From assembly GCA_028280415.1 (NCBI GenBank), contig JANQLV010000061.1, forward strand, positions 248,001 through 312,000: 64,000 bases of DNA. Direction: 5' to 3'. The stretch's first letter is position 1; each line of letters starts with the position of its first letter. A program made the position numbers and the translations under genes. The notes under the pieces were generated by a model. The model saw nothing but the letters and a program-made list of their open reading frames with translations. It searched no databases and had not been told where the DNA came from. Below, one piece after another: positions 915-43,439 of the stretch. Origin of the DNA: Saprospiraceae bacterium. Its GTDB lineage: Bacteria > Bacteroidota > Bacteroidia > Chitinophagales > Saprospiraceae.

Positions 915-980
915 CAAAGTTAATGGCCAGATGGTGTATGCCGGATGATAAAACTCAGAACTCTGAATGATTTTGATCAA
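915..980 (-). promoter_or_regulatory. Tandem FNR-like operator and promoter of the 118-aa gene
   Basis: The distal site is ATGATTTTGATCAA (967-980) and the proximal site ATGATAAAACTCAG (945-958), with centres 22 bp apart. The -7 box TAACTTTG (minus strand, 915-922) is centred exactly 33 bp downstream of the proximal centre. The start codon at 875 is 77 bp from the proximal centre. Confidence 0.8.
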
Positions 981-1658
981 TTACATTTTTAGGGGCCGTT
1001 GAATTCTCGTAAAATAATCACAGACTTCAAAAACCAATTGTTCATTTAAAATCTGGTTAAATTGATAGTTATTGGGATTGAGTCGATACTGTACCGTATC
1101 TCCACTGGAAAGGTTTTCGACCAAAGTAATCTCTTCTAATCGTTCCAGATCGGTAGGAATGTTAGCTGCGGATAAAATCAGATCGCGGTCCGGGGTCATG
1201 CTTAGAATCAATACCTCCCAGTCATCTGTATTGAGCTGCTTATTCAATATCTGATGCCCTTTGAATTGACGCAGGACCTGATATTCACCGATTTCAAATA
1301 AAGTATCGCTTAACATCAAATCTGCAAAAATAGAGTCGCCCTTGATGATCACGGGAACAGGTTCTTTCATAAAAGAGACATACATCAAATCATCTTCTAT
1401 TCTTACCTCTTTGTATACCTGGACCTCTTCTAAAGTCGTAGCAATGGAGTAGAGCTTTTCTTTATAGACTGTATTATTAGTTATTCGCACTGTTGCACTG
1501 TCTGAGGAGCAGAGAAAAACGCCCCGGTACATCATTGGGAAATTATTCAAAGTAAGGCCATCATGCGGCTGAGGTTCGGAAAAAACAACCGGAGGGGTAC
1601 AGGCGCTTAAAAAGCTAAGTACCAGTACTATACTAAGAGAATAAGATAGATTTTTCAT
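981..1658 (-). CDS. Lipoprotein of unknown function (225 aa)
   Basis: The N-terminus is a lipoprotein signal peptide with the lipobox LSAC and Cys20, so the protein is expected to be anchored to the membrane facing the periplasm or outside. The mature part has alternating short beta-prone segments (for example VPVIIKGDSIFADLML) and no motif I can assign to a family. It diverges from the USP gene at 1820 across a 161-bp spacer. The tandem operator in that spacer fits the plus-strand gene in orientation, so regulation of this one is unclear. Its stop codon lies right next to the distal operator site of the 118-aa gene. Confidence 0.8.
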   Translation of the reverse strand: MKNLSYSLSIVLVLSFLSACTPPVVFSEPQPHDGLTLNNFPMMYRGVFLCSSDSATVRITNNTVYKEKLYSIATTLEEVQVYKEVRIEDDLMYVSFMKEPVPVIIKGDSIFADLMLSDTLFEIGEYQVLRQFKGHQILNKQLNTDDWEVLILSMTPDRDLILSAANIPTDLERLEEITLVENLSSGDTVQYRLNPNNYQFNQILNEQLVFEVCDYFTRIQRPLKM

Positions 1659-1720
1659 GTTTTTGCTGCCAAGTTCTTCATAGTTGAAAAAATAAGCACT
1701 GATTTTTAATAAACTAAAGA

Positions 1721-1786
1721 TTGAGAAATATCATACAAGAGAATGATTAAAGTCAGAATAGCTAAACAGAATCCGGTATAACTTGG
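1721..1786 (+). promoter_or_regulatory. Tandem FNR-like operator and promoter of the USP-CBS-OMP operon
   Basis: Sites TTGAGAAATATCAT (1721-1734) and ATGATTAAAGTCAG (1743-1756) have centres 22 bp apart. The -7 box TAACTTGG (1779-1786) is centred 33 bp after the proximal site. The ATG is at 1820. Confidence 0.75.
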
Positions 1787-1819
1787 CCGAAAGATTATCT
1801 ACCAATAAAAAGTAATGAT

Positions 1820-2665: not shown

Positions 2666-2681
2666 TAAAAGTCAAAAAAAT

Positions 2682-3089: not shown

Positions 3090-3091
3090 AA

Positions 3092-4365: not shown

Positions 4366-4431
4366 ATGACCTTTGTCATGTGTAATGTTGACCTGTGTCA
4401 TATAAAATGAAACTGGCTTCAGATAATTTTG
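4366..4431 (+). promoter_or_regulatory. Tandem FNR-like operator and promoter of the HlyD-ABC operon
   Basis: ATGACCTTTGTCAT (4366-4379) and TTGACCTGTGTCAT (4388-4401) have centres 22 bp apart. The perfect -7 box TAATTTTG (4424-4431) is centred 33 bp after the proximal site. This places the start of transcription just before the ATG at 4456 and excludes the TTG at 4429 as a start codon. Confidence 0.85.
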
Positions 4432-4455: not shown

Positions 4456-5565
4456 ATGAATCAAATAACCAGGTGGAGAGAAAACTTTTTACAACTCGTT
4501 TGTATATCCACAATTTTATGTAGTCTAAGCGCTTGCAATAAAAAAACTGAAACGATTAAACCTCGTCTCAATGATTTAACGGAATCGATTTATGCTTCGG
4601 TGACCATCCAGCCCGAAGATATTTATACTGTTTATTCCAGTACTTCGGGCATACTTGAGGTTTTGACGATTGAGGAAGGTGATGCGGTTAAGTCCGGACA
4701 AATGCTTGCCCGGATTAAAACGATTGTACCAAGCTTGAATATCGAAAATGCCAATCTGAGCCTTGAATTGGCAAAGGAAAAATACCTGGGCCAAAGTAAT
4801 ACATTGGCAAGTATTAAAAATGAAATGGACCAGTTGGCGCAGCAGATTCAACTTGATTCTATTAATTATATTCGACAGATGAACCTGTGGAAACAAAATA
4901 TCGGTTCAAAAGCTGAACTGGAAAATAGAAAGTTGAAACTTGAAATCGGGCAAAAACAAAGAGCCGGCCTGTTTAAAAAATACCATCAGGCAGAAGTAGA
5001 ACTGGAAAACCTGTACAAGAAATCTCAAACCAGTTTGAAAAAAGCAAAAACCGATCTAAACGATTATACCATACAATCCAAAATTGACGGGAAGGTGTAC
5101 TCGCTTTTTAAGAATGAAGGCGAACGAATCAATCCTCAGGAACCTTTAGCCAGTATTGGTAAGGAAGAGGAATATATTATAGAAATGCGAATAGATGAGG
5201 TAGATATTGCAAGGGTCAAAAATGATCAGAAGGTTCTCATTACACTGGATGCCTATAATGGGCAGGTCTTTGAAGGGCATATTACCAGAATTTATCCTCA
5301 GAAAGATAAACAGACCCAGACTTTTAAAATCGAAGGTAAATTTGATCAAATCCCGGAAGTACTTTACGCAGGGCTTTCCGGGGAAGCTAATATCATTTTT
5401 GCTCAAAGAAAAAATGTATTGACCATTCCCCTGGAATATCTGATCGATCAGTCTAGAGTCAAAACAATTGATGGCGAGGTGAATGTTCAGACCGGAATAA
5501 AAACAATGGATCGAATTGAGATTATAAGTGGTTTGGATACGGCTACTCAAATTTTAAAACCTTAA
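4456..5565 (+). CDS. Periplasmic adaptor (HlyD/MacA-type membrane fusion lipoprotein)
   Basis: The protein has 369 residues from the ATG at 4456. The lipobox LSAC with Cys27 predicts a lipidated periplasmic protein. A split biotinyl-lipoyl domain is visible (GILEVLTIEEGDAVKSGQMLARI before the hairpin and DGKVYSLFKNEGERINPQEPLASIG after it), flanking a coiled-coil hairpin rich in Q, K and E. Beta-barrel and membrane-proximal domains follow. It is the adaptor of a MacAB/Lol-like ABC system encoded by the next two genes, 5 and 10 bp apart. No outer-membrane TolC partner is in the operon. Substrate unknown. Confidence 0.9.
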   Translation: MNQITRWRENFLQLVCISTILCSLSACNKKTETIKPRLNDLTESIYASVTIQPEDIYTVYSSTSGILEVLTIEEGDAVKSGQMLARIKTIVPSLNIENANLSLELAKEKYLGQSNTLASIKNEMDQLAQQIQLDSINYIRQMNLWKQNIGSKAELENRKLKLEIGQKQRAGLFKKYHQAEVELENLYKKSQTSLKKAKTDLNDYTIQSKIDGKVYSLFKNEGERINPQEPLASIGKEEEYIIEMRIDEVDIARVKNDQKVLITLDAYNGQVFEGHITRIYPQKDKQTQTFKIEGKFDQIPEVLYAGLSGEANIIFAQRKNVLTIPLEYLIDQSRVKTIDGEVNVQTGIKTMDRIEIISGLDTATQILKP

Positions 5566-15469: not shown

Positions 15470-15543
15470 GCTTCCTTAGCTCAGCTGGTTAGAGCATCTG
15501 ACTGTTAATCAGAGGGTCCAAGGTTCAAGTCCTTGAGGAAGCG
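15470..15543 (+). tRNA. tRNA-Asn (anticodon GTT)
   Basis: A complete cloverleaf can be folded: acceptor GCTTCCT/AGGAAGC, D-arm GCTC/GAGC, anticodon stem TCTGA/TCAGA with loop CTGTTAA (anticodon GTT), T-stem CAAGG/CCTTG with loop TTCAAGT, and discriminator G. The 3' CCA is not encoded. Confidence 0.97.
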
Positions 15544-15547
15544 CATC

Positions 15548-15636: not shown

Positions 15637-15702
15637 TTGATAAAAATCATCTTATTACTTGATCAAAATCAGAGTTCCTGCTTTTTTCAAAGGCTTATTT
15701 TG
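15637..15702 (+). promoter_or_regulatory. Tandem FNR-like operator and promoter of the HMA-USP-USP operon
   Basis: TTGATAAAAATCAT (15637-15650) and TTGATCAAAATCAG (15659-15672) have centres 22 bp apart. The -7 box TTATTTTG (15695-15702) is centred 33 bp after the proximal site. The predicted leader before the ATG at 15714 is very short. Confidence 0.85.
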
Positions 15703-15713: not shown

Positions 15714-15983
15714 ATGGGGCAGGAAATTATAAAAGTAGATAATTTAAAATGTGGTGGTTGCGCCAATTCTGTTATTAGAGCGTTTCAGGCTGTAAAGGAT
15801 GTTTCAACTGTAAATGTTGATCCCGAGTCAGGCACAGTTGAAATTAACTATGAAAAGGCGGGGCGACGAGAAGAATATATCAAATTACTTTCTAAATTGG
15901 GATATCCCGAAGCAGGGACATCTACTCTGTTGCAAAAAGGGAAATCTTATATCAGTTGTGCGGTAGGCCGAATTAAAAAATAA
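15714..15983 (+). CDS. Heavy-metal-associated (HMA) domain protein (89 aa)
   Basis: The N-terminal 65 residues form an HMA (ferredoxin-like) domain with the metal-binding motif CGGC (Cys13, Cys16) in VDNLKCGGCANSV, as in CopZ/Atx1 metallochaperones. A short C-terminal tail contains another Cys (SYISCAVGRIKK). It probably carries Cu(I) or another soft metal, but no P1B-type ATPase is nearby. It is the first gene of an operon with two USP genes, driven by a tandem FNR-like promoter; this ties a metal carrier to the stress regulon. Confidence 0.88.
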   Translation: MGQEIIKVDNLKCGGCANSVIRAFQAVKDVSTVNVDPESGTVEINYEKAGRREEYIKLLSKLGYPEAGTSTLLQKGKSYISCAVGRIKK

Positions 15984-18606: not shown

Positions 18607-18672
18607 TTGATAAATATCAGTTTTTTTACTGACCTAAGTCATTCATAAAGTGGAGCAAATGATTGAACTTTG
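18607..18672 (+). promoter_or_regulatory. Tandem FNR-like operator and promoter of the CBS gene
   Basis: TTGATAAATATCAG (18607-18620) and CTGACCTAAGTCAT (18629-18642) have centres 22 bp apart. The -7 box GAACTTTG (18665-18672) is centred 33 bp downstream. No CAAAnnTA box is found at the mirrored position for the divergent USP. Confidence 0.8.
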
Positions 18673-18742: not shown

Positions 18743-19189
18743 ATGTATACTACTAAACTTTCAGAAATAATGACACCCAACCCTGCTACGGTCAATTCAG
18801 ATGACAATTTTGAGATAGTTGATTATCTTTTTAATAATAACGACTTTCACCATTTACCGGTGGTGGATGCAGACAGCAAATTGGTGGGGATTGTAAGCAA
18901 ATCGGATTACCTTACGCTTTGTGATAGTTTTTCGATTTTTAAAAGTAAAATAAGTGAAGCGCAAAATCATCGCTTGTTCAAATCAATACTTGTCAAAGAT
19001 GTAATGCAAAAAAATATTGCTAAGCTCAATCCTGAGCATAGTGTAATGATAGCGGCGGGATTTTTTAAAGAGAATTTATTCCATGCCATTCCGGTCGTGG
19101 ATGCAGAGAATAAATTAGTAGGAATTGTAACTACATTTGATCTGCTAAACCTGGCCTATGCAGAACCCGGGGTTAGTAGCAAAGTCTAA
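18743..19189 (+). CDS. CBS-domain pair protein (148 aa)
   Basis: Two CBS motifs fill the protein: IMTPNPATVNSDDNFEIVDY with HHLPVVDADSKLVGIVSKSDYL, and VMQKNIAKLNPEHSVMIAAG with HAIPVVDAENKLVGIVTTFDLL. There is no attached effector domain, so it acts as a stand-alone adenine-nucleotide sensor, probably by binding partner proteins. It has its own tandem FNR-like promoter and is followed by a strong terminator, so it is a single-gene unit. Confidence 0.93.
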   Translation: MYTTKLSEIMTPNPATVNSDDNFEIVDYLFNNNDFHHLPVVDADSKLVGIVSKSDYLTLCDSFSIFKSKISEAQNHRLFKSILVKDVMQKNIAKLNPEHSVMIAAGFFKENLFHAIPVVDAENKLVGIVTTFDLLNLAYAEPGVSSKV

Positions 19190-23367: not shown

Positions 23368-23433
23368 CAAAATTAAGTGGATATACTTTATAATGAAATG
23401 GAATTTGTCAAAGCAGATATTGATTTTTGTCAA
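23368..23433 (-). promoter_or_regulatory. Tandem FNR-like operator and promoter of hsp20-ftsH
   Basis: Distal site TTGATTTTTGTCAA (23420-23433, plus-strand reading), proximal site ATGGAATTTGTCAA (23398-23411), centres 22 bp apart. The -7 box TAATTTTG (minus strand, 23368-23375) is centred 33 bp downstream. The remainder of the gap to 23676 shows no further gene; the 75-codon frame at 23377-23604 overlaps this promoter. Confidence 0.8.
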
Positions 23434-24646: not shown

Positions 24647-24712
24647 CAAAGCTAATGAAATACCTTTTTCGGAATGGTGACAAAACTCAGGCAGAGAATT
24701 GATATTTATCAT
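24647..24712 (-). promoter_or_regulatory. Tandem FNR-like operator and promoter of the 312-aa USP
   Basis: Distal site TTGATATTTATCAT (24699-24712), proximal site GTGACAAAACTCAG (24677-24690), centres 22 bp apart. The perfect -7 box TAGCTTTG (minus strand, 24647-24654) is centred 33 bp downstream. Confidence 0.85.
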
Positions 24713-24858: not shown

Positions 24859-25230
24859 TTAAACATTACTTGCGGCTGCTTCTTGTTCTTTTTCCATTTC
24901 GAATTGTTTCAAGGCTTCAAGAGCTTCGCAACCATATATTACGGCTGGTCCGCCACCCATTAAAACAGCTACACCTATGGCTTCCACAATTTCCTGCTTG
25001 CTTGCACCAGATTTTATAGCATCGTGCGTATGAAAAGCAATACAGCCGTCACATCGACTGGTAATAGCAATTCCTAATGAAATCAATTCTTTGGTTTTTG
25101 TAGAAAGCGCACCTTCTCCACAAGCAGATTTATGCAAAGCATTGAAACTGTTCATGGTTTCTGGAATTTCTGCTTGTAAGTCTCCGATGAGGCGAGAAAG
25201 TTCTTGATAGTGATTCGGATAATTTTTCAT
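24859..25230 (-). CDS. Carboxymuconolactone decarboxylase/AhpD-like protein (123 aa)
   Basis: The family motif CDGCIAFHTHDAIKSGASKQEIVEAIGVAVLMGGGPAV contains a CxxC pair (Cys55, Cys58) and the following His, as in AhpD-type alkylhydroperoxidases, where the cysteines carry out thiol-based peroxide or disulfide chemistry. The length is normal for the family. It is probably a cytosolic redox protein; the physiological partner is unknown. It is a single-gene unit with a perfect FNR-like site in its promoter, divergent from the hybrid regulator gene. Confidence 0.9.
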   Translation of the reverse strand: MKNYPNHYQELSRLIGDLQAEIPETMNSFNALHKSACGEGALSTKTKELISLGIAITSRCDGCIAFHTHDAIKSGASKQEIVEAIGVAVLMGGGPAVIYGCEALEALKQFEMEKEQEAAASNV

Positions 25231-25242: not shown

Positions 25243-25308
25243 CAAAAGTATCGGAAGGCCTGCTTCAAATAAATGAGCAAATTCATTTTGAGATTTGATA
25301 TTTATCAA
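25243..25308 (-). promoter_or_regulatory. Tandem FNR-like operator and promoter of the AhpD-like gene
   Basis: Distal site TTGATATTTATCAA (25295-25308) is a perfect FNR box; the proximal site is ATGAGCAAATTCAT (25273-25286), centres 22 bp apart. The perfect -7 box TACTTTTG (minus strand, 25243-25250) is centred 33 bp downstream. Confidence 0.9.
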
Positions 25309-25372: not shown

Positions 25373-25438
25373 ATGATAATTGTCACTACTATAAATGACC
25401 AGGATCATGTTTTTTGACTTGCCGATATGTTTTATTTG
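25373..25438 (+). promoter_or_regulatory. Tandem FNR-like operator and promoter of the hybrid regulator (autoregulation)
   Basis: ATGATAATTGTCAC (25373-25386) and ATGACCAGGATCAT (25395-25408) have centres 22 bp apart. The -7 box TTTATTTG (25431-25438) is centred 33 bp downstream. The ATG is at 25462. Confidence 0.8.
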
Positions 25439-25461: not shown

Positions 25462-26517
25462 ATGAAAAAAATCCTAATTATTGAAGATAACCCGGAAGTG
25501 AGAGAGAATCTGGAAGAAATTCTTTCCCTTTCGGGCTATGATATTTCCACCGCAGAAAATGGAGTTGTAGGAGTGGAAAAAGCGCTGAAAGAGAATCCGC
25601 ATTTGATTCTTTGCGATGTAATGATGCCAAAACTGGACGGCTTCGGGGTTTTAAGAATTCTCAATCAGAAACCCGAGACCAATGATATACCTTTTATCTT
25701 TTTAACTGCAAAAGCCGAAAAAAATGATTTTCGGGTCGGAATGAATTTGGGGGCGGATGATTATATTACCAAACCTTTTGAGCACCTGGAGTTACTGGAA
25801 GCCATAGAAACCCGATTGAAAAAAACAGAACGTCTGGACAAGGCTTTTAAAGAAGGGGTAATGCAAACTAAAACCCTGACGGATGAACAAAAAGGTCAAA
25901 GAGAGTTGGAAAAACTGGTGGAATCCAAAGAATGCAGGTTTTATCACAAAAAGGATATCATCTTTCGCGAAGGAGAGATGCCAAGGCGCTTATTTTATGT
26001 AGCCAAAGGAAAAGTGAAAACTTACCGGACCAATGATTTTGGAAAGGACTTTATAACCGGAGTCTATAATCCCGGAGATTTTATTGGATTTAATGCGCTG
26101 CTAACGGAAGGTAACTATCAGGAATCTGCGGCGACTATGGAAGATGCCGAAGTGTGTTTTATTCCCAAAGAAGAATTTATGGAATTATTGAGTGGAAGCC
26201 GGGATTTTACTGCCCGGTTTATCAAAATGCTCAGTAATAATATTGCGGAAAAAGAAGCGCAGTTAATTAACCTCGCTTACAACTCTATAAGAAAACGGGT
26301 AGCCGATGCTTTGGTTGTGCTTCATAAAAAGGCCAGTGCTATCGGAGAAACCAAAATTAATATCTTGCGTGATGATCTGGCGAGTATGGTTGGAACAGCT
26401 AAAGAATCCGTTTCCAGGATGTTAACCGATTTTAAATCCGAAAAACTCATTGAGATCGAACCTAATGGCTTGATCACTATTTTGAATGAAGAAGATCTGG
26501 CCGCTATTCCGAATTAA
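25462..26517 (+). CDS. Hybrid regulator: receiver + cNMP-binding + Crp/Fnr HTH (351 aa)
   Basis: Residues 1-120 are a response-regulator receiver with acidic pocket (IIEDN), phospho-acceptor Asp52 (LILCDVMMP) and Lys in ITKPF. Residues 150-265 are a Crp-type sensor domain ([31 protein letters not shown]) with no four-Cys Fe-S set as in E. coli FNR. The C-terminal winged helix has recognition helix AKESVSRML. The E-x-x-S-R pattern is that of FNR (VETISR), unlike CRP (RETVGR), and predicts TTGAT-type half-sites. Such half-sites occur as tandem pairs throughout the window, including in this gene's own promoter. I infer it is the regulon's master regulator, with phosphorylation rather than an Fe-S cluster as the likely signal. 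Confidence 0.93.
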
Positions 26518-27695: not shown

Positions 27696-27761
27696 CAAGT
27701 ATACTAATTCCTGGATCGAGTTCCTATGTGCTAGATCAATGCAGCGCTTATTATTCATCAA
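27696..27761 (-). promoter_or_regulatory. Weak tandem FNR-like operator and promoter for the small minus-strand frame
   Basis: The sites (plus-strand reading) are TTATTATTCATCAA (27748-27761) and ATGTGCTAGATCAA (27726-27739), each with one good ATCAA half-site, centres 22 bp apart. TATACTTG on the minus strand (27696-27703) is centred 33 bp downstream. It is the weakest of the set, but the spacing is exact. Confidence 0.45.
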
Positions 27762-27770: not shown

Positions 27771-27836
27771 TTGATAAAAATCAATGAGTAAATTGATAAA
27801 CAATAGTTGAAGAAGTATGGAATGGAAGTATCTTAT
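27771..27836 (+). promoter_or_regulatory. Tandem FNR-like operator and promoter of the head-GIN lipoprotein gene
   Basis: TTGATAAAAATCAA (27771-27784) is a perfect FNR box; TTGATAAACAATAG (27793-27806) has one good half. The centres are 22 bp apart. The -7-like box TATCTTAT (27829-27836) is centred 33 bp downstream. Confidence 0.7.
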
Positions 27837-27894: not shown

Positions 27895-28620
27895 ATGCAG
27901 AAAAAAATATCATTTTCAAGTTTATTAATAGCAATACTTTTACTGAGTCAAGCCTGTCAGAAACCCGAAGACAGGTGTACCTTTGGATACGGCGAAATAG
28001 AACGACAACCGCTTTTTTTGCCTCCAATAGAAGGTATTGAATTAAACATAGATGCTAAGGTCTTTTTGAATTACGATAGGGCTCAAAAAGTAGAAATTGA
28101 AGCTCAGGGAAATGTATACAATAATATTGAAAGGAAAATACAGGATGGTATTTGGGAAATTGATTTTGAAAACTGTATGTTAGCCCATCAGGCGATCAAT
28201 ATCTACATATCTCTTCCGCAATTGACTCTTGTAGAGAATAATGATGAAGGAGAAATTTATACCGAAACCTTATTTGAAAATCAGGATGAAATCACTATTA
28301 GAAATAATCGTTCGGGCTACATTTCCCTTAAAGCGGAAGCACAACAATTAAATACCGATCTGAATGCTTCCGGTAATATTAAGCTGTTTGGCACAACGAA
28401 TTATAATTATATTAGTCTCTCCGGTTCTGGAAATATAAGGTCTTACGATTGTATTAATGCTAAAGCGGAAGTCCTTTTAAGCGGCAGTGGTGATGTGCGG
28501 TTGAATGTTACCGAAGAATTAAGCGGAGAAATATCCGGTAGTGGTGATATTCTCTACATTGGAAATCCGGTGATCGATATTCTGGCCAGTGGCAAGGGAG
28601 AATTGATCAATATGAATTGA
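27895..28620 (+). CDS. Head-GIN (DUF2807) lipoprotein (241 aa)
   Basis: A lipobox SQAC with Cys21 marks a lipoprotein. The mature chain is a repetitive beta-solenoid with Gly/Ser turns: NASGNIKLFG, LSGSGNIRSYD, LSGSGDVRLN and ISGSGDILYIG. This is the DUF2807 putative auto-transporter adhesin head-GIN pattern. It is expected at the cell envelope; its function is unknown and adhesion is only the family label. It has its own tandem FNR-like promoter. The 206-bp gap after it holds no gene I can support. Confidence 0.85.
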   Translation: MQKKISFSSLLIAILLLSQACQKPEDRCTFGYGEIERQPLFLPPIEGIELNIDAKVFLNYDRAQKVEIEAQGNVYNNIERKIQDGIWEIDFENCMLAHQAINIYISLPQLTLVENNDEGEIYTETLFENQDEITIRNNRSGYISLKAEAQQLNTDLNASGNIKLFGTTNYNYISLSGSGNIRSYDCINAKAEVLLSGSGDVRLNVTEELSGEISGSGDILYIGNPVIDILASGKGELINMN

Positions 28621-29320: not shown

Positions 29321-31996
29321 CTATTCTATAATGCGCAGTAATTTTACAAATCGAATTAAAAAAACGGGAATCAGGCTAAAAGTGAAGATCATCCCGAATA
29401 CTTCCCAGGTAATTGGTTGCAAATTCAAAACTTCCCGCGTTAGTGGAATTTCATACATTACAAAAGTGACCAACACACAAGTAAGCAAAGCCATCCAGAT
29501 ATGTACATTCTGTGTTACTTCGTTTTTGAAAAAGGATTGATTTGCTCCGGGCAGATTAAATACATGCCAGAGTTGTACTAATATGAGCGTATAAAATGTA
29601 TAATTGTTAGCCTGAACAGCGTCTACACTCAAATAATAGGTAGCATAAAAAGTAAGTCCTAAAACAGCCGCCGCCATTGCCATCGCATAAACGATAATGG
29701 ATCGCCACATCCTCGAATTAATAATCGATGCTTTGGCTTTTCTGGGCGAATTCTGCATTACCTGATTAGACGCTTTATTCATTCCCAGCGCCAGAGCCGG
29801 GAAAACATCCGTAACCATATTTAGAAAAAGGATTTGTAAGGGCAATAAATAGGAGTTGAAACCGAAAAGCACAATAGTTGCCACCACGATAATCTCACTC
29901 AGGTTACAGGAAAGAAGGTATACGACAAAGTAACGGATATTTTGAAAAATGCCGCGTCCCAGCTTTATAGCCAGCGCAATAGAGGTAAAAGCGTCGTCTT
30001 CCAGAACCAGGTCAGCTACTTCTTTAGCCGCCTCTGTCCCTCTTTTCCCCATTGCGATTCCAATGTCGGCTTTTTTTAATGCGGGTGTGTCATTAATCCC
30101 GTCACCGGTCATTCCAACTACAGACTGTTTTTCCTGAAAAATCTTTACGAGCCCTAATTTTTGTGCCGGACTAACCCTTGCAAATATTTGAGTATTCATT
30201 AGCTCGGAATGCTTTTCCTTGTTCAGCAGATTTCCGGGTTTTAGATTCGAACCATGTACCACCTTCGCATGATCCGATTTGACCAGGCCGGTTTTTTGGG
30301 CAATATTTCGAGCTGTTTCAGGATGATCTCCGGTAACCATGATTACCTTGATGCCAGCTTCCTGACAAGTTTGAATGGCTTCTTTTACGCCGGATCGGGG
30401 CGGATCGAGGAAGCCTACAAATCCGACAAACGTCAGATTATGAAAAAAATACTCTTTTTCTTCGTCGATTTCACTGTAGGCAAAGCCCAGTAAACGCAAA
30501 CCCTGTGCTGCCAAACGATCTGCTCTTTGCAACCAGGCTTTCTTATCTTTAAAATTTCTTCGGCCTTCCTGGCTTAGTACATAATCGCTTTCGCCTAATA
30601 CTACCTCCAGGGCTCCTTTTATGCAAACCAGAAAATCGGGACGATTTCCATTTTTATGCAATGTACCCATCATTTTCGCATTGCTGTCAAAAGGAATTTC
30701 CCGCAAGCGGGGGTAAAGCATTTTACTTTCCTTGAGATTGATATGCGCCGATTGAGCAAAATTCAGCAAGGCAATTTCAAGAGGATCACCAATGTGTTCA
30801 CCAGCCTGATCGTCTAAAGTCAAACTGGCATTATTGCACAAAGCAGAAATCTTTAATAATTGACCATAAGCAAAAGTGTCTTGTACATATTGCTCGTTCT
30901 TCTTCTCAAATTGTATATGACCATTTTCGAAAAGGACATTTGTATCTGCGAATTCAAAGCCCAATACGGATACGGATAATTGATTCTCCGTAAGCGTTCC
31001 GGTTTTATCAGTTAAAATAACCTGAGCTTCCCCGAGTGTTTCTACTGCACTCAGTTTTTTTACAATAACCCGATGTTTAGCCAATCTCAACATACCTTTT
31101 GCCAGTACTATTGTGGCTACAATCGGCAAGCCTTCGGGAATCGCAGCAATCCCCAAAGCAATAGCGGTCTTGAGCATTATATAGAAATCCCTGCCCTGAA
31201 TTATTCCAAGCACAAGGATAATTAACATCAGCACTAAAGTCAACCATAATAACTTCATGCTGAATTCATTCAGTTTCTTTTCGAGCGGTGTTACCGCCTT
31301 GTCGGCACTATGAGTCAGTTCACTGATCTTTCCAAGTTCCGTATGTTTTCCAGTAGTAAAAACAATGGCTTTGGCATTGCCCATGCTTATAATAGTTCCT
31401 TTGAATAAAAGATTAGTGCGATCTGCGAGAGTTACCTCACCTTTCAAAGCTTCGATTTGTTTTTTTACCTGATTACTTTCTCCTGTAAGTGCTGCTTCTT
31501 TTACACGTATATTATGTTGTTCTAAAATTCGACAATCAGCCGGGACGACATCCCCCGCTTCAAGAAATAATAAATCTCCCGGGACTAAATCAGTCGTTTT
31601 GACCTTTTTCAAAGATCCATCTCTGTAAACATTTGCGGAAGTCTGTGTAAGCTTTCTTAATGCTTTCATGGAGCGACTGGCCTGCCATTCCATGAAAAAA
31701 CCAATTGCTGCATTAATCAGGATGACACTGAGAATCGCGAAACCTTCCAGCCACTCTTTAAACAAAAAGGCGAGTATCGCGGCAATTAACAATACCCAGA
31801 CTAGTGGGCTGATGAACTGGTGAAGGAAAAGGCGGATTAGAGGCGTATCTTTTTGTAAAGTCAATTCGTTTCTGCCCCAGGTTTCCAAACGCCGTTCCGC
31901 TTCATTTTGACTAAGCCCTTTACGGTCACTACTCTCAAGTAAACTGACTATGTTCTCCGGCGGAATTTGCCATGCTTTTCTTATAGGGTCGGGCAT
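29321..31996 (-). CDS. Ca2+-type (P2) cation-transporting P-type ATPase (891 aa)
   Basis: All P-type motifs are present: N-terminal cation-ATPase domain (NIVSLLESSDRKGLSQNEAERRL), actuator motif LTGES, metal-site motif PEGLP in TM4, phosphorylation site DKTGTLTEN, nucleotide-domain KGALEVVL, MVTGDHPETA and hinge MTGDGINDTPAL. About ten membrane segments with a C-terminal cation-ATPase domain follow. The PEGLP motif and length fit the SERCA/PMCA-like P2A/B group, so Ca2+ (or Mn2+) export is likely. It has its own tandem FNR-like promoter and is followed by a CBS gene, as with the CtpF-type pumps of dormancy regulons. Confidence 0.95.
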   Translation of the reverse strand: MPDPIRKAWQIPPENIVSLLESSDRKGLSQNEAERRLETWGRNELTLQKDTPLIRLFLHQFISPLVWVLLIAAILAFLFKEWLEGFAILSVILINAAIGFFMEWQASRSMKALRKLTQTSANVYRDGSLKKVKTTDLVPGDLLFLEAGDVVPADCRILEQHNIRVKEAALTGESNQVKKQIEALKGEVTLADRTNLLFKGTIISMGNAKAIVFTTGKHTELGKISELTHSADKAVTPLEKKLNEFSMKLLWLTLVLMLIILVLGIIQGRDFYIMLKTAIALGIAAIPEGLPIVATIVLAKGMLRLAKHRVIVKKLSAVETLGEAQVILTDKTGTLTENQLSVSVLGFEFADTNVLFENGHIQFEKKNEQYVQDTFAYGQLLKISALCNNASLTLDDQAGEHIGDPLEIALLNFAQSAHINLKESKMLYPRLREIPFDSNAKMMGTLHKNGNRPDFLVCIKGALEVVLGESDYVLSQEGRRNFKDKKAWLQRADRLAAQGLRLLGFAYSEIDEEKEYFFHNLTFVGFVGFLDPPRSGVKEAIQTCQEAGIKVIMVTGDHPETARNIAQKTGLVKSDHAKVVHGSNLKPGNLLNKEKHSELMNTQIFARVSPAQKLGLVKIFQEKQSVVGMTGDGINDTPALKKADIGIAMGKRGTEAAKEVADLVLEDDAFTSIALAIKLGRGIFQNIRYFVVYLLSCNLSEIIVVATIVLFGFNSYLLPLQILFLNMVTDVFPALALGMNKASNQVMQNSPRKAKASIINSRMWRSIIVYAMAMAAAVLGLTFYATYYLSVDAVQANNYTFYTLILVQLWHVFNLPGANQSFFKNEVTQNVHIWMALLTCVLVTFVMYEIPLTREVLNLQPITWEVFGMIFTFSLIPVFLIRFVKLLRIIE

Positions 31997-32018: not shown

Positions 32019-32084
32019 CAAAAATATCGTATTGATTGGCATACTAAGATGATCGCGGTCAAGCAGCAGAATGATAAAGATCAT
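32019..32084 (-). promoter_or_regulatory. Tandem FNR-like operator and promoter of the P-ATPase-CBS operon
   Basis: Distal site ATGATAAAGATCAT (32071-32084), proximal site ATGATCGCGGTCAA (32049-32062), centres 22 bp apart. The perfect -7 box TATTTTTG (minus strand, 32019-32026) is centred 33 bp downstream. In the rest of the 304-bp gap (to 32300) I see no gene I can support. Confidence 0.85.
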
Positions 32085-34045: not shown

Positions 34046-34657
34046 TTATAATATTTCTGAAAAAGCATGTTTAAGATGATTGAAAGACTGAGAGATTTCT
34101 TCCATGAATCGCTCGACGCTGTTCCCATCCAGATTGTTTTCCCGATCTATGATCTGGATAGTCTTGTCTAGAACTACTTCCAATTCATTTTGTGGCCGTG
34201 AAAGCTTTTGCCGGGTATCATATTCGCTCAAAGCCAACTGAATACGGTAAACATCAAGGGGATTTCTCAACTCGGTCAACTGGCGACTGCTGCGTTCAGG
34301 AGAGTCGCTGATAATTTCTCGGAGCATGTATTCTACTTCGTGGATCAGTTTCAGCGTTTGTTTTCGGAAATTATCGAAAGATCGTTTACTTTTTGCTTCT
34401 TCTTTGCGAAGAACAGAACTCAACTCACTTAGCTTTCGTACTAAAGTGATGCGCTGGTCTTTGTTTTGGGCGTCTGCTTTTTCGAATTGAGCCTGTTGTT
34501 GCCTGAAAAACTTTTTGAGATTTTTACTTTCCTTTTCCCAGGCATCTTTTGCTTCCGCTTTACCCAATGAAAGTTGTAGCTCTAATTCTTCTATCATGCC
34601 TTTCCATTGATTGAGTTTGGACTTACCAAATTCCATGAATTCTTTTTTCGTATCCAT
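34046..34657 (-). CDS. Coiled-coil protein of unknown function (203 aa)
   Basis: The protein is almost entirely helical and charged, with heptad-like runs (LKKFFRQQQAQFEKADAQNK, LSSVLRKEEAKSKRSFDNFR). It has no signal peptide or membrane segment, so it is cytosolic. No family is recognised. It is the first gene of an operon with the UbiB-type kinase and has its own tandem FNR-like promoter. A link to membrane or quinone function is suggested only by this neighbour. Confidence 0.75.
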   Translation of the reverse strand: MDTKKEFMEFGKSKLNQWKGMIEELELQLSLGKAEAKDAWEKESKNLKKFFRQQQAQFEKADAQNKDQRITLVRKLSELSSVLRKEEAKSKRSFDNFRKQTLKLIHEVEYMLREIISDSPERSSRQLTELRNPLDVYRIQLALSEYDTRQKLSRPQNELEVVLDKTIQIIDRENNLDGNSVERFMEEISQSFNHLKHAFSEIL

Positions 34658-34697: not shown

Positions 34698-34763
34698 CCA
34701 AGATGCGGCCTTTGTTTATAGCATTAAATGTTGTTGATCAAAAGAAAATATGATTTTTATCAA
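34698..34763 (-). promoter_or_regulatory. Tandem FNR-like operator and promoter of the coiled-coil-UbiB operon
   Basis: Distal site ATGATTTTTATCAA (34750-34763), proximal site ATGTTGTTGATCAA (34728-34741), centres 22 bp apart. A degenerate -7 box CATCTTGG (minus strand, 34698-34705) is centred 33 bp downstream. Confidence 0.7.
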
Positions 34764-34926: not shown

Positions 34927-34992
34927 ATGATAAATATCAACAGCAGGCTTGAATTAAATCAGCTTTAGATAAGAGGCAAGCTTCTAAATTGG
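34927..34992 (+). promoter_or_regulatory. Tandem FNR-like operator and promoter of the Mla/MCE operon
   Basis: ATGATAAATATCAA (34927-34940) and TTGAATTAAATCAG (34949-34962) have centres 22 bp apart. The -7 box TAAATTGG (34985-34992) is centred 33 bp downstream. The predicted leader to the ATG at 35119 is about 120 nt, the longest in the set. The rest of the 461-bp gap 34658-35118 shows no gene. Confidence 0.75.
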
Positions 34993-35118: not shown

Positions 35119-35892
35119 ATGAATACACTGGTAAAAAATATTCGAAATTATCTGGATGAAACCGGAAAGATTTCGCTCTTTGCTTTCCGCTTTTTTCAAC
35201 AGGTTTTTCGACGACCTTTTGAGTTTAAAGAACTGTTTCGCCAATGTTATTTGCTCGGCTACAAGTCTTTATTTTTGGTGGTTACGACCGGGTTTATTAT
35301 GGGGCTGGTATTGACCTTACAGATTCGGCCGACAATGATCGAATTTGGGGCAACTTACTATATTCCTCAAATGGTCGGGATTGCTATTGTTCGCGAAATA
35401 GGACCGGTTATCACGGCTTTGATCTGCGCTGGAAAAATTGGCTCCAGTATTGGAGCAGAACTTGGGTCGATGAAAGTTACCGAGCAGATTGATGCAATGG
35501 AGGTCTCGGGAACCAATCCATTCAAATATCTGGTAGTAACGAGAATACTGGCGAGTACGCTTATGCTGCCTTTATTGGTCATCGCAGCGGATGCCATTGG
35601 ATTATTCGGTTCTTTTTTGGTAGAAGCGACAAAAGGGGATATCAGTGCAACGCTTTACTTCAATATTGTCTTTGATAGCCTGGTTTTTGGAGATCTTATT
35701 CCCGCTACACTTAAATCCTTCTTTTTTGGATTTGCCATTGGATTGGTGGGATGTTATAAAGGTTATTATTCCGATAAAGGGACGGAGGGCGTCGGACGTG
35801 CCGCGAATATGGCAGTAGTGTTAGCAAGTTTACTTCTTTTTGTGATTGATTTTCTGGCGGTATTAATTGCGGATATCTTTTTTGAAATTTAA
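35119..35892 (+). CDS. MlaE-family ABC permease (257 aa)
   Basis: The MlaE/YrbE family is recognised from FIMGLVLTLQIRPTMIEFGATYYIPQMVGIAIVREIGPVITALICAGKIGSSIGAELGSMKVTEQIDAMEV; the REIGPV and GAELG...EQIDA motifs are typical. Four to five membrane segments follow a basic N-terminus. It is the permease of a phospholipid-transport ABC system (Mla/MCE) that moves lipids between inner and outer membrane. The ATPase and the MCE substrate-binding protein follow at once. No MlaC, MlaA or MlaB partner is in the operon. Confidence 0.95.
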   Translation: MNTLVKNIRNYLDETGKISLFAFRFFQQVFRRPFEFKELFRQCYLLGYKSLFLVVTTGFIMGLVLTLQIRPTMIEFGATYYIPQMVGIAIVREIGPVITALICAGKIGSSIGAELGSMKVTEQIDAMEVSGTNPFKYLVVTRILASTLMLPLLVIAADAIGLFGSFLVEATKGDISATLYFNIVFDSLVFGDLIPATLKSFFFGFAIGLVGCYKGYYSDKGTEGVGRAANMAVVLASLLLFVIDFLAVLIADIFFEI

Positions 35893-36694: not shown

Positions 36695-36695
36695 A

Positions 36696-37781: not shown

Positions 37782-37847
37782 TTGATGAAGATCAATACCT
37801 GGTCTGTGAAATGACAACTCTTCTTCTAAATTAAGATGCGAACTTTG
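37782..37847 (+). promoter_or_regulatory. Tandem FNR-like operator and promoter of the 541-aa protein gene
   Basis: TTGATGAAGATCAA (37782-37795) is a perfect FNR box; CTGTGAAATGACAA (37804-37817) is weak. The centres are 22 bp apart. The -7 box GAACTTTG (37840-37847, the same octamer as at 18665) is centred 33 bp downstream. Confidence 0.7.
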
Positions 37848-37874: not shown

Positions 37875-39500
37875 ATGAACAGTTCAGAGCCTAAGCTTAT
37901 TCAATTCTTCCTGTTTTTATTTTTATTCGGAGTTTTCCTCAACGCTAATGCGCAGACGGATAAAGAATTGCTCCGTGAACTAGTGACGGAAGAACAAGAA
38001 GCGGTTAATGCATTGGTCCTTTATCCGGAGGAAGTGCGGAATGATATTTTCATTGCTGCTCAACATCCCGAAGCATTGATTAAAGTAGAAAGTATTCAAC
38101 GTCAAACCAGTAATTCTTTTCAGGAATTGCTGACATCCTATCCTCAGGATATTCAGGAGTTGATCTGGGATTTGACTCGTTATCCCAATTTGATTGAAAA
38201 AGTAATAACTCCCGAAAATCAATCAAAAGCAGCTTTAAAACGCATTCTTAAAAACTATCCTGAGAAGATTCGGCCACAAGCCAAAAAGGCGGCACAGGAC
38301 TATCTTCCGTTATTGATGAGTATCAGTCAGCTTAACGAATCTGCTGAATCTGCCTTTGAATCCATCCTGCTCGAATACCCGCCACAAAGCCGGAAAGCCC
38401 TGCGGCAAATGATTAAGCTTCCCGAAGTCTTAACCATACTGACCAGCAATATTCGCCTAGTTGTTTTGGTAGGAGATATTTACAGCAAAGATCCGGAGTG
38501 GTTACATTACAAAGCGGATAGCCTCAATCTGCTTCTTGCCAGCCAAAATGCCAGGGAGCTTGAGGACTGGAAAGCGAGCTTGGAGAATAATCCGGAAGTA
38601 CTGGAAGAGCTTAAAGCATCCGGCGATACCTATAATGAACATTACGATTATGATGATGACGAATATCAGGACTTCATCGATGATCTTTATTACGATGCTG
38701 AAGAAGATGAACCGGCCGAGGTCATTGTCCGTCACCATTATTACCATAGCTATCGCTATTGGTTTGGTTATCCATACTGGTACGAGTATCCGAGATGGCG
38801 CATTTATCCTTATTGGTACGATTGGGGGTTTTATATTGGTAGGAATAATGCGGTAGTTGTAATTGGTTTGCCTTCCTATCATTTTACACAATGGTATTTT
38901 TACCATCCGCATCACCATGCTTACTGGCCTCATTTATCCGCTCATTTTGTCAATCATTATTATGGGCATCGCAAGGTGGGTAGCAGTATTGTGAGTAGTG
39001 TAAGAAGCTGGAAACACCAAAACAGATCAGTCATCAATGATCAATGGCTACAAGATGATAAAAACCTGGTCCGGAGGTTCAGGGAATACGGGAAGTTCGA
39101 GACGGAGAGATTGAAACACAATCGGAAAAAACCGGAGAAAGCTTATTCGCAATCCGAGTATGCGGATCGATACAAAAAACGCTATCCCGAATTATCAAAA
39201 ACCAGAAAGCAAGTAGAAGAGGTCACTAAAGTTCCCAGGAATCAGCAGGGGAAAGAGTTTACTAAATCGAGAGTAGACATCCCCTCAAAAGAGGTTCCAA
39301 CGAAGACCATTCCGAAAAGAGATAAAAAGCTTAGAAAAAAAGTGACTGTTCCAAAAGTGGATAAAGCAAGAGATTATCACAAAAATACCTGGGAAAAACC
39401 CAAACGAACAAGAGTGATAAAACCCAGACAAAATAAAGCACCAAAAACGTTTAAACCCAAAAAAATAAAACCTACAAGGAAAAAACAGAAACCAACTTAA
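37875..39500 (+). CDS. Large exported protein with Tyr/Trp-rich centre and basic tail (541 aa)
   Basis: A signal peptide ends near NANAQT. Residues 25-200 hold repeated helical units built around YPE/YPQ/YPN turns (LVLYPEEVRNDI, LLTSYPQDIQEL, LTRYPNLIEKV, LKNYPEKIRP, LLEYPPQSRKA), somewhat like DUF3300 proteins. An acidic stretch (YDYDDDEYQDFIDDLYYDAEEDE) leads into an extreme Tyr/Trp/His-rich segment (about residues 285-345), and the last 150 residues are Lys/Arg-rich. Its family is uncertain. It has its own tandem FNR-like promoter and may be co-transcribed with the two DUF4136 lipoprotein genes that follow. An envelope-associated structural role is possible. Confidence 0.7.
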   Translation: MNSSEPKLIQFFLFLFLFGVFLNANAQTDKELLRELVTEEQEAVNALVLYPEEVRNDIFIAAQHPEALIKVESIQRQTSNSFQELLTSYPQDIQELIWDLTRYPNLIEKVITPENQSKAALKRILKNYPEKIRPQAKKAAQDYLPLLMSISQLNESAESAFESILLEYPPQSRKALRQMIKLPEVLTILTSNIRLVVLVGDIYSKDPEWLHYKADSLNLLLASQNARELEDWKASLENNPEVLEELKASGDTYNEHYDYDDDEYQDFIDDLYYDAEEDEPAEVIVRHHYYHSYRYWFGYPYWYEYPRWRIYPYWYDWGFYIGRNNAVVVIGLPSYHFTQWYFYHPHHHAYWPHLSAHFVNHYYGHRKVGSSIVSSVRSWKHQNRSVINDQWLQDDKNLVRRFREYGKFETERLKHNRKKPEKAYSQSEYADRYKKRYPELSKTRKQVEEVTKVPRNQQGKEFTKSRVDIPSKEVPTKTIPKRDKKLRKKVTVPKVDKARDYHKNTWEKPKRTRVIKPRQNKAPKTFKPKKIKPTRKKQKPT

Positions 39501-40115: not shown

Positions 40116-40163
40116 CACGGCGTTCAGAATGTTTAAGATTGTATAGTTACTTATGTATAAAAT

Positions 40164-40832: not shown

Positions 40833-42746
40833 TTATGGCTTGGGAATTTCTACGTAGAAAGTCGTCCCTTCTCCCAATTTGCTTTCAAACCAAATCTTGC
40901 CATACATCAAGTCGAGATAGCGTTTGACAATAGTAAGCCCGAGGCCCGTACCTTGAATATTGGAAACATTATTGGCCCGGAAAAACCGGGAGAACATATG
41001 TTTTTGATCCTCTTCCGGAATTCCCATCCCTTTGTCGGCAACCTCAATGCGAATTTTATTATCCGTATTTTTGGAAACTATTTTAATCGGCTTATGCTCT
41101 GGAGAATATTTGATGGCATTAGACAACAGATTAAGTAGTACATTCTTAACCAGATTGGTATCAATGCTAATGGTATGATCTCCCTCGTGATAATGATCAA
41201 TGGTTTGACCTTCTTTTAAAATAACCTTTAGCTCTTCTTTAATATCCTCGACATAGCTTTTAAAATTAGTCGTTTTTAAAGAAAGGCTTACTTTACCGGA
41301 TTCAAGTTTTTCGAGCGAAAGAAAATCATTCAGGATAGCAGTTAAGTTTCTAACCGAAGACTTGATTCGATCGATATGGCGATATTGTTTATCAAATTGT
41401 TCCTTCTTGTTGTATAATTCGATTAGTGAGGCAGAAGAAAGAATAGAAGAAAGGGGCGTCCTGAATTCGTGAGAGGCCATTGAAACAAAACGGGATTTGA
41501 GTTCTCCAAGCTCTCTTTCTCTTTCAAGTGCTTTCAATAGCTTTTGTTCACTAATTTTTAGCTCCTGAGTCCGTTCCGCCACTTTTTGTTCCAGTTTATC
41601 AGAATATTCATGCATTTTGCGTTCGTATTCTCGCCTTTCGGAAATATCCAGGATGATAGCTACGAAGACGGGATTATTTCCCAAATTTGCGTATTGTAAA
41701 TGCACCTCTACAGGGTAGGTACTCCTGTCTTTTCGCTGATGAACGCTTTCGAATAAAAGTTTGTCGACTTTTCCTTCTTGCAAAGGGGCGATCAGGCGCA
41801 TAAAATCTTCTTTACTATACTCCGGCTTGATATCAACAGGAGTCATCGTTTGCATTTCCTCCAGCGTATAACCTATGTTTTTTAAAGCCCCTTTATTAAC
41901 TTGAACAAACTTGAAGTCTATACCATCAAATATAAATATCTCATTTAGCGACTCCTCTACAATTTTTGAGATACCTTCTTTATAACTTATTGCTTCTCTG
42001 AGGTCGGTAACATCCTGAAGCAGGCCAAAAACTTTTACGACAGTATTATTTTCATCCAGTTTCACATCTCGCTTTCCCTCGACATATCTCAATCCCTGCG
42101 TTTTGGAAAGTATCCGGTAACCAAAATTGATTCCCTTCTTTTCTTCTTTTATTTTTTTATAAAAACCCCTTACCAAATCCACATCTTCGGGATAAATATG
42201 CCCGAAATATTTTTCCTTGGAAATGACTTCCGAATCATTTTCAAATCCAAAGATTCGATACATTTCTTTTGACCATTTATACTGCCCGGTTTGAAAATCT
42301 ATCTCAAAACTTCCCGTACGGGCTATTTTTTGGGACTCTTCCAAAAGCGCTTGACTGTCTTGTAGCTTATTGAGCATTTGCTGCTGGGCACTATTATCAC
42401 TTACATAGGCAATGACAAACTGATCTCCATTGAGGGCCATTGAACTCAGGCTTATCTTAACCGGAAACTGTAATCCGTTTTTTCGCAAACCGTATAATTC
42501 CAGATTGGCACCCATAGCTCGTGGGACCAGGTTTTGCTGATATGATTTTCTGTATTTAACATGCTGTTCACGAAAAGATTTTGGAAGCAGTTCTTCTACC
42601 TTCAAATTGATCAGGGCGCCATTTTCATATCCAAACAACTTTTCAGAAAAAGGATTAGCTTTTATAATATTCCCCTCAAAATCAACCACAATAATACCTA
42701 TTGTCGCCTCCAGAAACATAGATTCCAGCATTCTAATGTCGTCCAT
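40833..42746 (-). CDS. PAS-domain sensor histidine kinase (637 aa)
   Basis: Three PAS-type sensor regions can be read: LFLEATIGIIVVDFEGNIIKAN near the N-terminus, SFEIDFQTGQYKWSKEMYRIFGFE in the middle, and EIFIFDGIDFKFVQVNKGALKNIGY. A coiled-coil and a HisKA domain with the phospho-accepting His (SMASHEFRTPLSS, about residue 423) follow, then a HATPase domain with N-box LLSNAIKYS, DKGMGIPEED and GTGLGLTIV. There are no membrane segments, so it senses an internal signal. It lies 17 bp after a single-domain receiver gene on the same strand. It is a candidate kinase for both that receiver and the hybrid regulator at 25462. Confidence 0.93.
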   Translation of the reverse strand: MDDIRMLESMFLEATIGIIVVDFEGNIIKANPFSEKLFGYENGALINLKVEELLPKSFREQHVKYRKSYQQNLVPRAMGANLELYGLRKNGLQFPVKISLSSMALNGDQFVIAYVSDNSAQQQMLNKLQDSQALLEESQKIARTGSFEIDFQTGQYKWSKEMYRIFGFENDSEVISKEKYFGHIYPEDVDLVRGFYKKIKEEKKGINFGYRILSKTQGLRYVEGKRDVKLDENNTVVKVFGLLQDVTDLREAISYKEGISKIVEESLNEIFIFDGIDFKFVQVNKGALKNIGYTLEEMQTMTPVDIKPEYSKEDFMRLIAPLQEGKVDKLLFESVHQRKDRSTYPVEVHLQYANLGNNPVFVAIILDISERREYERKMHEYSDKLEQKVAERTQELKISEQKLLKALERERELGELKSRFVSMASHEFRTPLSSILSSASLIELYNKKEQFDKQYRHIDRIKSSVRNLTAILNDFLSLEKLESGKVSLSLKTTNFKSYVEDIKEELKVILKEGQTIDHYHEGDHTISIDTNLVKNVLLNLLSNAIKYSPEHKPIKIVSKNTDNKIRIEVADKGMGIPEEDQKHMFSRFFRANNVSNIQGTGLGLTIVKRYLDLMYGKIWFESKLGEGTTFYVEIPKP

Positions 42747-42763
42747 AATTTTACTCTAAATGT

Positions 42764-43135
42764 CTACTTAAGTAAGTTCTCAATCGTATCCAGTAAATGG
42801 TCCACTTGAAAAGGTTTTGTAAGATAGGCATCAGCACCGGAAACCTTGCCTTTTGCAATATCTCGTTCTTGTGCACTGGCTGTCAAAAACATGAAAGGAA
42901 TTTGTTCGGCTTTGAGAATAGGATTTAGAGTTTCAAAAACTTCATAACCATCTTTGGCAGGCATGGAAATATCACAAATGATTAGATCAAATTGCTCATT
43001 AGTAGCTTTCTCAATACCAATAGCCCCGTTTTCTGCTATTGATACCTGATAATTGGCAAGTTCAAGAAGCTCTTCCAGATTCTCTCGAATATCATCATTA
43101 TCTTCAATGACGAGGATTTTATGCATGTTTTTCAT
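42764..43135 (-). CDS. Single-domain response regulator (123 aa)
   Basis: This is a lone receiver: acidic pocket VIEDNDD, phospho-acceptor Asp in LIICDISMPAKDGYEVF, Thr in MFLTAS and Lys in YLTKPF. No output domain is present. I chose the ATG at 43135 (MKNMHKILVIED), since the longer frame adds a non-family tail. It resembles the receiver of the hybrid regulator at 25462 closely (IAENGAIGIEKA against [12 protein letters not shown]), suggesting a shared phosphorelay. A candidate -7 box (TATTTTTG on the minus strand, 43184-43191) lies upstream without FNR-like sites. Confidence 0.92.
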   Translation of the reverse strand: MKNMHKILVIEDNDDIRENLEELLELANYQVSIAENGAIGIEKATNEQFDLIICDISMPAKDGYEVFETLNPILKAEQIPFMFLTASAQERDIAKGKVSGADAYLTKPFQVDHLLDTIENLLK

Positions 43136-43373
43136 TAATTGGCCTGTACCTGTAAGAGTGCGTTTAAGATTCGTATTTGATGGCAAAAATACTGGATTTT
43201 TGGTTCTGAAAAAAGCCGAAACCAAAGTTTAAAAACCGCCTGCCCTCCAGAAGGGATGTATTTGCAATTCTAAAAACGAGATTTAAACATACTTTAACGT
43301 AATATAATCAAATAATTCAAAAAAGCTTTTCAAAAGCTTGTCTTATTATTTAAGATAACTTCAAGTGAAAAAG

Positions 43374-43439
43374 TTGAGAAATTATAAACCGGCCATTGAT
43401 AAAAGTCAATTGAACTTTCAATAAATGAGAATAGCTTTG
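43374..43439 (+). promoter_or_regulatory. Tandem FNR-like operator and promoter of the PEP synthase gene
   Basis: TTGAGAAATTATAA (43374-43387, weak) and TTGATAAAAGTCAA (43396-43409, strong) have centres 22 bp apart. The perfect -7 box TAGCTTTG (43432-43439) is centred 33 bp downstream. Here the stronger site is the proximal one. Nothing else is seen in the 336-bp gap. Confidence 0.8.

Follow-up and report, generated by a model that had tools for sequence, protein, structure and literature searches.

The closest described relatives of the system reported here are the FixL-FixJ-FixK2 cascade of Bradyrhizobium and the hFixL-FxkR-FixK cascade of Rhizobium, which share with it a FixL-like haem-PAS kinase, a receiver, a cysteine-free CRP/FNR-type activator, sites of the form TTGA-N6-TCAA, and fixI-type ATPase and hemN-like genes among the targets. 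The system was found in a window of 64 kb (the whole stretch of DNA that was analysed) on contig C5 of the 7.1-Mb genome of a Saprospiraceae bacterium, where a set of promoters carries two palindromes at one spacing followed by a -7 box, and where gene 25462 codes for a fusion of receiver and CRP-type protein. In contrast to the rhizobial cascades, receiver and CRP output are here one protein, so that no step through a FixJ-type helix-turn-helix (HTH) would be needed, and the sites form a fixed pair, whereas the rhizobial fixNOQP and fixGHIS promoters listed in PMC7888657 carry one activating box each.

We propose, with a probability of roughly 70%, that these promoter modules are low-oxygen (microaerobic) activation promoters read by the fusion at 25462 and its two paralogs, which are probably phosphorylated by a FixL-like kinase. 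The system would work like FixL-FixJ-FixK, yet the fusion is neither a FixJ (by its output domain), nor a FixK (it is not stand-alone), nor an FNR (by its cysteines). The class II promoters of Escherichia coli FNR have the same type of site sequence at a position near -41.5; the present system departs from them in a fusion without Fe-S cysteines, a near-obligatory site at -63.5 and a -7 box of the Bacteroidota type. Searches of the open-licence literature, judged by titles and the opening lines of abstracts, turned up no paper that describes such a paired promoter, nor one in which a receiver-CRP protein partners FixL in Bacteroidota; this is not proof of absence. The one study of a Saprospiraceae genome among the papers found gave its CRP/FNR protein a conjectural role in carbon sensing, like that of MalR (PMC8510549).

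Paired palindromes at a fixed distance from the -7 box

Alignment of 15 promoters of the window revealed a shared register, in which a distal 14-mer resembling TTGATAAAAATCAA is followed by eight bases without conservation, a proximal 14-mer resembling TTGAnnnnnnTCAT, 22 bases with little conservation and a box resembling TAnCTTTG. In all 15 the two palindromes (TTGAT-N4-ATCAA-like) start 22 bp apart and a TAnnTTTG-like box starts 36 bp after the start of the proximal 14-mer, or 33 bp from centre to centre, just where the original prediction had placed them. Exact TGA-N6-TCA is present in both palindromes of 10 modules; the proximal copy is inexact in the modules of 23343, 27895, 34657 and 37875 and the distal copy in that of 43472, and the -7 box of the 27895 module (TATCTTAT) is poor. 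A position weight matrix (PWM) trained on the 15 window modules was used for module scores, for the 23-bp comparison and for the list of targets in the same genome, while an untrained consensus served for spacing counts, shuffles and a two-dimensional slide. Leave-one-out scores of the 15 modules ranged from 22.5 to 37.8. For a sixteenth module, proposed for a frame at 27635, a weak pair is indeed present (24.3 compared with 29.7-42.3 for the 15 named modules), with no open reading frame of at least 60 aa starting within 260 bp (Table 1).

In Flavobacterium psychrophilum the TAnnTTTG box lies at -12 to -5 (PMC9723704), and the two sites would therefore be centred at -41.5 and -63.5. The layout is that of a class II promoter, with a site that overlaps the -35/-33 region at a fixed distance from the box and a sharp peak at offset 36, and the TTGAT-N4-ATCAA sites near -41.5 are of the FNR type, their position being derived from predicted -7 boxes. 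The proposed class-II-like position with a second dimer two helical turns upstream is thus supported at the level of sequence, both by the box position and by the second sites described below.

The geometry far exceeds chance. In the untrained TTGATNNNNATCAA count, the window had 11 pairs spaced by 22 bp, while each of the other spacings between 14 and 60 gave 0-4, and 30 dinucleotide shuffles of the window gave at most 3 pairs at 22 bp; control stretches of the same genome (260 kb) contained 3 pairs at 22 bp, with no excess over other spacings. When spacing and box offset were varied together, 11 instances fell into the cell with spacing 22 and offset 36, written (22,36); the other 774 cells of the window averaged 0.014, and none exceeded 3. 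The 13 control stretches of the same genome (260 kb in total) had none in this cell. By contrast, 10 instances were found in 153 kb of the genome outside the window; because these stretches were partly chosen for pairs (L031, L032, L033 and L037 for known 22-bp pairs, L034-L036 for lying near them or the window, L121 for the regulator), the 10 modules are a fair test of the box distance and a partial test of the spacing. In 46 loci of other species that carry the regulator, 33 instances fell at (22,36), 21 at (23,36), 9 at (22,37) and at most 5 in any other cell, whereas 46 control loci, which are named matches taken as receiver-only, gave 0 at (22,36) and 1 at (23,36). The claim that the arrangement is not that of unrelated DNA therefore stands, and the exact 22-bp spacing holds in this genome but may be 23 bp in other species. 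The whole genome contains 27 exact pairs at 22 bp and 1 at 25 bp. The modules had been taken as one regulon covering most of the first 45 kb of the window; a shared regulon is supported, but it extends beyond those 45 kb.

Two other explanations were discarded. An oddity of the window alone is ruled out by the modules in other species, and a coding-sequence artefact is ruled out as the whole cause, since 25 bp, a spacing in the same codon phase, gives a tenth of the counts.

The two palindromes behave as a unit. A second site exactly 22 bp upstream accompanies 14 of the 16 sites of the genome that have a box at the right distance, and the distal palindrome is the stronger one in 14 of 15 modules (one symmetric matrix for both sites; Wilcoxon p = 0.008). 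Among strong single palindromes in the regulon DNA of this genome, offsets 36 and 58 are the only ones at which a box recurs; they are the offsets of a palindrome in the proximal and in the distal role. Pairs with 23-bp spacing in other species mostly hold the proximal site at its usual distance from the box (4 of 6 by PWM, in addition to the instances at (23,36)), so that the proximal dimer looks like the one anchored to the polymerase. Some pairs serve two divergent promoters, and the pair upstream of 4456 also has a weaker reading on the opposite strand, facing 4257. Runs of three palindromes at 22-bp steps were seen at G000:C5:159790-159845, G054:C2:2518584-2518639 and G128:C5:324937-324992.

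The candidate regulator, its probable kinase and candidate target genes

The product of gene 25462 joins a receiver to a domain of the cNMP-binding type and an HTH of the Crp type (output HTH_Crp_2 / Crp), and its closest named relatives are from Saprospiraceae. Three such fusions are encoded in the genome (C5:273 kb, C5:166 kb and C31:73 kb), and one or more modules lie less than 20 kb from every one of them. The phospho-acceptor D52 and the helix residues E315 and R319 are present in 48 of 48 fusion rows, and E. coli CRP has the same E and R at the corresponding places of its helix. Helix residue 318 is S in 4 rows and I in 44, and its match with the outer half-site base (distal site p = 0.013 and 0.004, proximal site p = 0.056 and 0.31) is a hint at most because G+C content is higher in most of the other species. 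No alignment column outside the receiver reaches 5 cysteines among the 48 rows. Within the receiver, C51, directly before the phospho-acceptor aspartate, is cysteine in all 48.

The regulator had been predicted to be FNR-like and to be the protein at 25462. The latter proposal gained support from the sequence features described here; the former agrees with the type and position of the sites but not with the protein, which has a receiver domain and no iron-sulphur cysteines. Classical FNR identity is ruled out, as the fusion lacks the cysteine cluster for a [4Fe-4S] centre. Without these cysteines and with a receiver, the regulator is best described as FixK-like and probably controlled by a kinase. 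It agrees with FixK in being a CRP/FNR protein without the cysteine motif and in the TTGA-N6-TCAA type of its putative sites (definition in PMC5582078 and PMC7888657), and differs from a stand-alone CRP under FixJ or FxkR in its fused receiver (no search was aimed at a separate FixJ-type regulator). It likewise differs from FixJ, a receiver with a NarL/LuxR-type HTH, in its Crp-type output.

Besides the three fusions, seven of the ten CRP-type HTH matches in the genome belong to other proteins, and the distal and proximal copies differ both in strength (as above) and in flanking letters. Each palindrome might accordingly be bound by a different CRP/FNR protein, the fusion at the strong distal site and a stand-alone CRP at the weaker proximal one, so that the promoter would add two signals. 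We consider this improbable: none of the seven other CRP proteins matches the helix pattern, while the three fusions do; in divergent pairs each site would need to be distal for one gene and proximal for the other; and four stretches from genomes without the fusion (see below) have the pair geometry near a single cysteine-bearing FNR-like protein. A further observation is a CRP-type HTH match with one in-frame TGA at G000:C4:54543-54722, about 10 kb from the pairs on C4, which may be decayed.

A FixL-like histidine kinase adjoins the fusion on the same strand in 33 of 34 named loci, the exception being L158 (to an initial 32 loci were added L172, which is cut by a contig end, and L173, at 36% identity). 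The kinase beside the C5:166-kb fusion (L033:17344-18618) combines HisKA and HATPase domains with a PAS domain that carries the haem histidine and the distal arginine and matches the FixL haem PAS at 102 bits (E 2e-28). By these tests it is FixL-like, and haem binding and a kinase activity inhibited by oxygen are predicted for it. Across the kinases, all 46 rows that have a residue in the haem histidine column show H, and 42 of 46 show R in the column of the distal arginine, 39 of them in a FixL-like IGxGR context. We take these columns to be FixL His200 and Arg220; the sequence of 1y28 differs from that of 1dp6 at the arginine column, which fits its being Arg220. The IGxGR stretch is absent in 7 of the 46 rows, including the window kinase 40833-42746, which has kept the haem histidine but not the distal arginine and which adjoins a stand-alone receiver (42764-43225).

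These seven rows, together with the cNMP-binding-type domain that the fusion retains, would be expected if promoter architecture and regulator were as described and the signal were something other than oxygen, such as nitric oxide, the redox state or a ligand bound by the cNMP-type domain. Given the 39 rows with histidine and arginine in FixL context and the genes beside the pairs, which fit low oxygen, this is rather unlikely.

The candidate first genes behind the window modules encode Usp, CBS, Hsp20, HMA, P-type cation ATPase, PEP-utilising, MlaE permease and HlyD-type proteins, a DUF2807 protein, a carboxymuconolactone-decarboxylase (CMD)-family protein, the regulator itself and three proteins without a Pfam match. 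Elsewhere in the genome, modules precede candidate target genes for a metal ATPase that, from its ATPase-cat_bd and weak HMA domains, is presumably of the FixI/CcoI type, a radical-SAM protein that we take to be HemN-like, an S30AE ribosome-hibernation-type protein, a rhodanese/lactamase-B protein, the FixL-like kinase itself and again Usp, Hsp20 and CBS proteins. When the genes behind 67 modules in the 46 other-species loci were compared with 27 reference proteins, the nearest reference was CBS in 15 cases (two weak), Usp in 7, Hsp20 in 4, the kinase in 3, the FixI type in 2, and the HemN-like protein, the hibernation factor and COX2 in one each; 11 matched other references, 20 matched none and 2 had no frame (four of the matches, three in L128 and one in L139, are self-matches of reference proteins). 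Usp, CBS, Hsp20, P-type ATPase and PEP enzymes are also found in the dormancy-type stress regulons of DosR in actinobacteria and ANR in pseudomonads, DosR being a NarL-type regulator with a different site arrangement.

These target types bear on whether the pair activates. Since the proximal site overlaps the -33 region, a dimer there could cover it and block the polymerase, with the distal dimer strengthening the block, and in rhizobial fnrN one of two anaeroboxes is repressive (PMC7888657). Such a mainly repressive role is likewise improbable in our view, because the distance to the box is constant nearly to the base and equal to that of the class II activation position, whereas a repressor would tolerate shifts, and because genes of these types are switched on by FixK/FNR proteins: the rhizobial FixK/FnrN regulons contain cco oxidase operons, hemN and fixLJ (PMC4999443) and fixGHIS, through an activating box (PMC7888657), and a small heat-shock protein is FnrN-dependent in rhizobia (PMC11784457).

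For activation by the fusion, the anatomy of the proteins and promoters suggests the following sequence of events. When oxygen is low, loss of bound oxygen from its haem would switch on the FixL-like kinase, as described for FixL (PMC4999443, PMC5582078). Phosphorylation of the fusion by this kinase would follow, and then the binding of two dimers to the same face of the DNA. The dimer at the usually stronger distal palindrome, 22 bp or two helical turns upstream, would aid the loading of the weaker proximal one cooperatively, and the proximal dimer, at about -41.5 and overlapping the -33 region, would contact RNA polymerase. FixL sensor, FixJ-like receiver and FixK-like CRP output would in this way form one step instead of two.

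Co-occurrence of pairs and regulators across genomes

In 198 genomes of the order, taken as one draw, 759 exact pairs were found at 22 bp compared with 78 at 25 bp, and a backward-read control of the 22-bp search gave 0 or 1 per genome. The mean number of pairs was 5.12 in the 125 genomes with the fusion versus 1.63 in the 73 without it, while at 25 bp both groups had about 0.4. The excess in fusion-less genomes led to a second regulator. In four stretches of such genomes, pairs and FixI/CcoI-type genes lie near a stand-alone protein (about 235 aa) whose N-terminal part has a CxxC...C cluster, and in three of the stretches Usp genes are nearby as well. Among 18 fusion-less genomes picked by pair count (11 with at least 4 pairs, 7 with none), the cluster is present in the best CRP frame of 11 loci, 10 of which have pairs close to that frame (box at least 4 of 6), and in the remaining seven loci there is neither cluster nor pair.

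A profile of ten of these cysteine-bearing FNR-like proteins, A1, separated them from the fusions (left-out members at least 331 bits, fusions at most 197) and matched 46 of the 198 genomes at E 1e-65. The label FNR-like in the following counts means a profile match; the cysteine cluster was checked afterwards and is present in 39 of the 46. Unlike the fusion, these proteins of other Chitinophagales are stand-alone and have no receiver, yet they share with it the paired geometry and similar nearby genes. In genomes at least 90% complete, the mean number of pairs was 5.54 with the fusion only (n = 94), 4.14 with both regulators (n = 14), 2.86 with the profile match only (n = 22) and 0.57, close to background, with neither (n = 23). 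The 30 profile matches without the fusion divide into 25 with the cluster, averaging 3.16 pairs, and 5 without it, averaging 0.40. When the label of having either regulator was shuffled within families, the observed value was never reached in 5000 trials (pair counts limited to 10).

The two regulators occur together less often than expected (both 16, fusion alone 109, profile alone 30, neither 43; Fisher p = 9e-6), also when only cluster-checked matches are counted (14, 111, 25 and 48; p = 1.6e-4), an avoidance that is weakened by shared descent. Outside the order, 19 of 57 genomes of the class have at least 2 pairs; the 15 with a long CRP frame (351-372 aa), candidate fusions by their length, average 3.87 pairs and the other 42 average 0.88. 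Tentatively, at a little under even odds, a fixed paired promoter code may have been kept across Chitinophagales, and perhaps in wider Bacteroidota, while the oxygen sensor reading it was exchanged between an Fe-S FNR-like protein and a FixJ-FixK fusion with a haem FixL kinase, two readers that tend to exclude each other and could be swapped without rewriting the promoters.

Taken together, low-oxygen activation by the fusion is supported by the geometry, the near-obligatory second site, its conservation, the co-occurrence of pairs and regulator, the adjacency of the kinase, its FixL-like residues and the target types. Several observations weigh against it. The window fusion has no adjacent kinase; the nearest FixL-like one found is encoded 14 kb off on the opposite strand, and its distal arginine is missing. 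Because seven other CRP-type HTH matches exist beside the three fusion paralogs, it is by association that the fusion is assigned as the binder. Exact pairs are absent from 9 of the 125 fusion-bearing genomes, and families f2, f19, f21 and f22 have no excess; conversely, 6 of the 43 genomes with neither regulator have at least 3 pairs (5 of the 6 are less than 90% complete), and G461, from another order, has 8 pairs and no profile match at E 1e-40. Finally, the correlation is not independent of descent beyond the family level.

If low-oxygen activation by the fusion is correct, the rule of 22 or 23 bp, 33 bp and TAnnTTTG would reveal a low-oxygen regulon in many genomes, many of them from uncultured aquatic and wastewater bacteria, since the relatives of the regulator are mostly from metagenome-assembled genomes. 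It would also be an example of two signalling steps merged in a single protein, and one of a sensor exchanged above a conserved promoter code.

Features of the window

Table 1. Promoter modules (distal palindrome, proximal palindrome and -7 box) and signalling genes of the window.
Feature	Position	Strand	Downstream gene or remark
Module	915..980	-	118-aa gene 519-875
Module	1721..1786	+	Usp gene 1820-2665
Module	4366..4431	+	HlyD-type membrane fusion gene 4456-5565
Module	15637..15702	+	HMA-domain gene 15714-15983, before Usp-like genes
Module	18607..18672	+	CBS-domain gene 18743-19189
Module	23368..23433	-	Hsp20 gene 22882-23343
Module	24647..24712	-	Usp gene 23677-24615
Module	25243..25308	-	Carboxymuconolactone-decarboxylase-family gene 24859-25230
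Module	25373..25438	+	Regulator gene 25462-26517 itself; putative autoregulation
Weak module	27696..27761	-	Frame at 27635; no open reading frame of at least 60 aa starts within 260 bp
Module, poor -7 box	27771..27836	+	DUF2807 gene 27895-28620
Module	32019..32084	-	P-type cation ATPase gene 29321-31996
Module	34698..34763	-	203-aa gene 34046-34657
Module	34927..34992	+	MlaE-type permease gene 35119-35892
Module	37782..37847	+	541-aa gene 37875-39500
Module, proximal site stronger	43374..43439	+	PEP-utilising / PPDK-type gene 43472-45859
Regulator, 351 aa	25462..26517	+	Receiver, cNMP-binding domain and Crp-type HTH
Histidine kinase, several PAS domains	40833..42746	-	Best solved match of PAS 1 is the FixL haem PAS
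Stand-alone receiver protein	42764..43225	-	Receiver 51% identical to that of the regulator

By eye, the genes of the stretch 46025-60742 resemble those of a contractile injection system, with candidate tail sheath, tube, spike and PAAR-like proteins preceded by two large proteins, and the window-wide PWM scan placed no module there. A tRNA-Asn gene (anticodon GTT) lies at 15470-15544, upstream of the 15637 module. A protein of about 120 aa without a Pfam match (519-875; L033:18744-19109; also in L136, L143 and L227) recurs beside modules and regulators. The 203-aa protein 34046-34657, likewise without a Pfam match, has look-alikes of the same length behind modules in L143, L144, L152 and L170, and by eye its look-alikes in other species are divergent from a thioredoxin-like gene.

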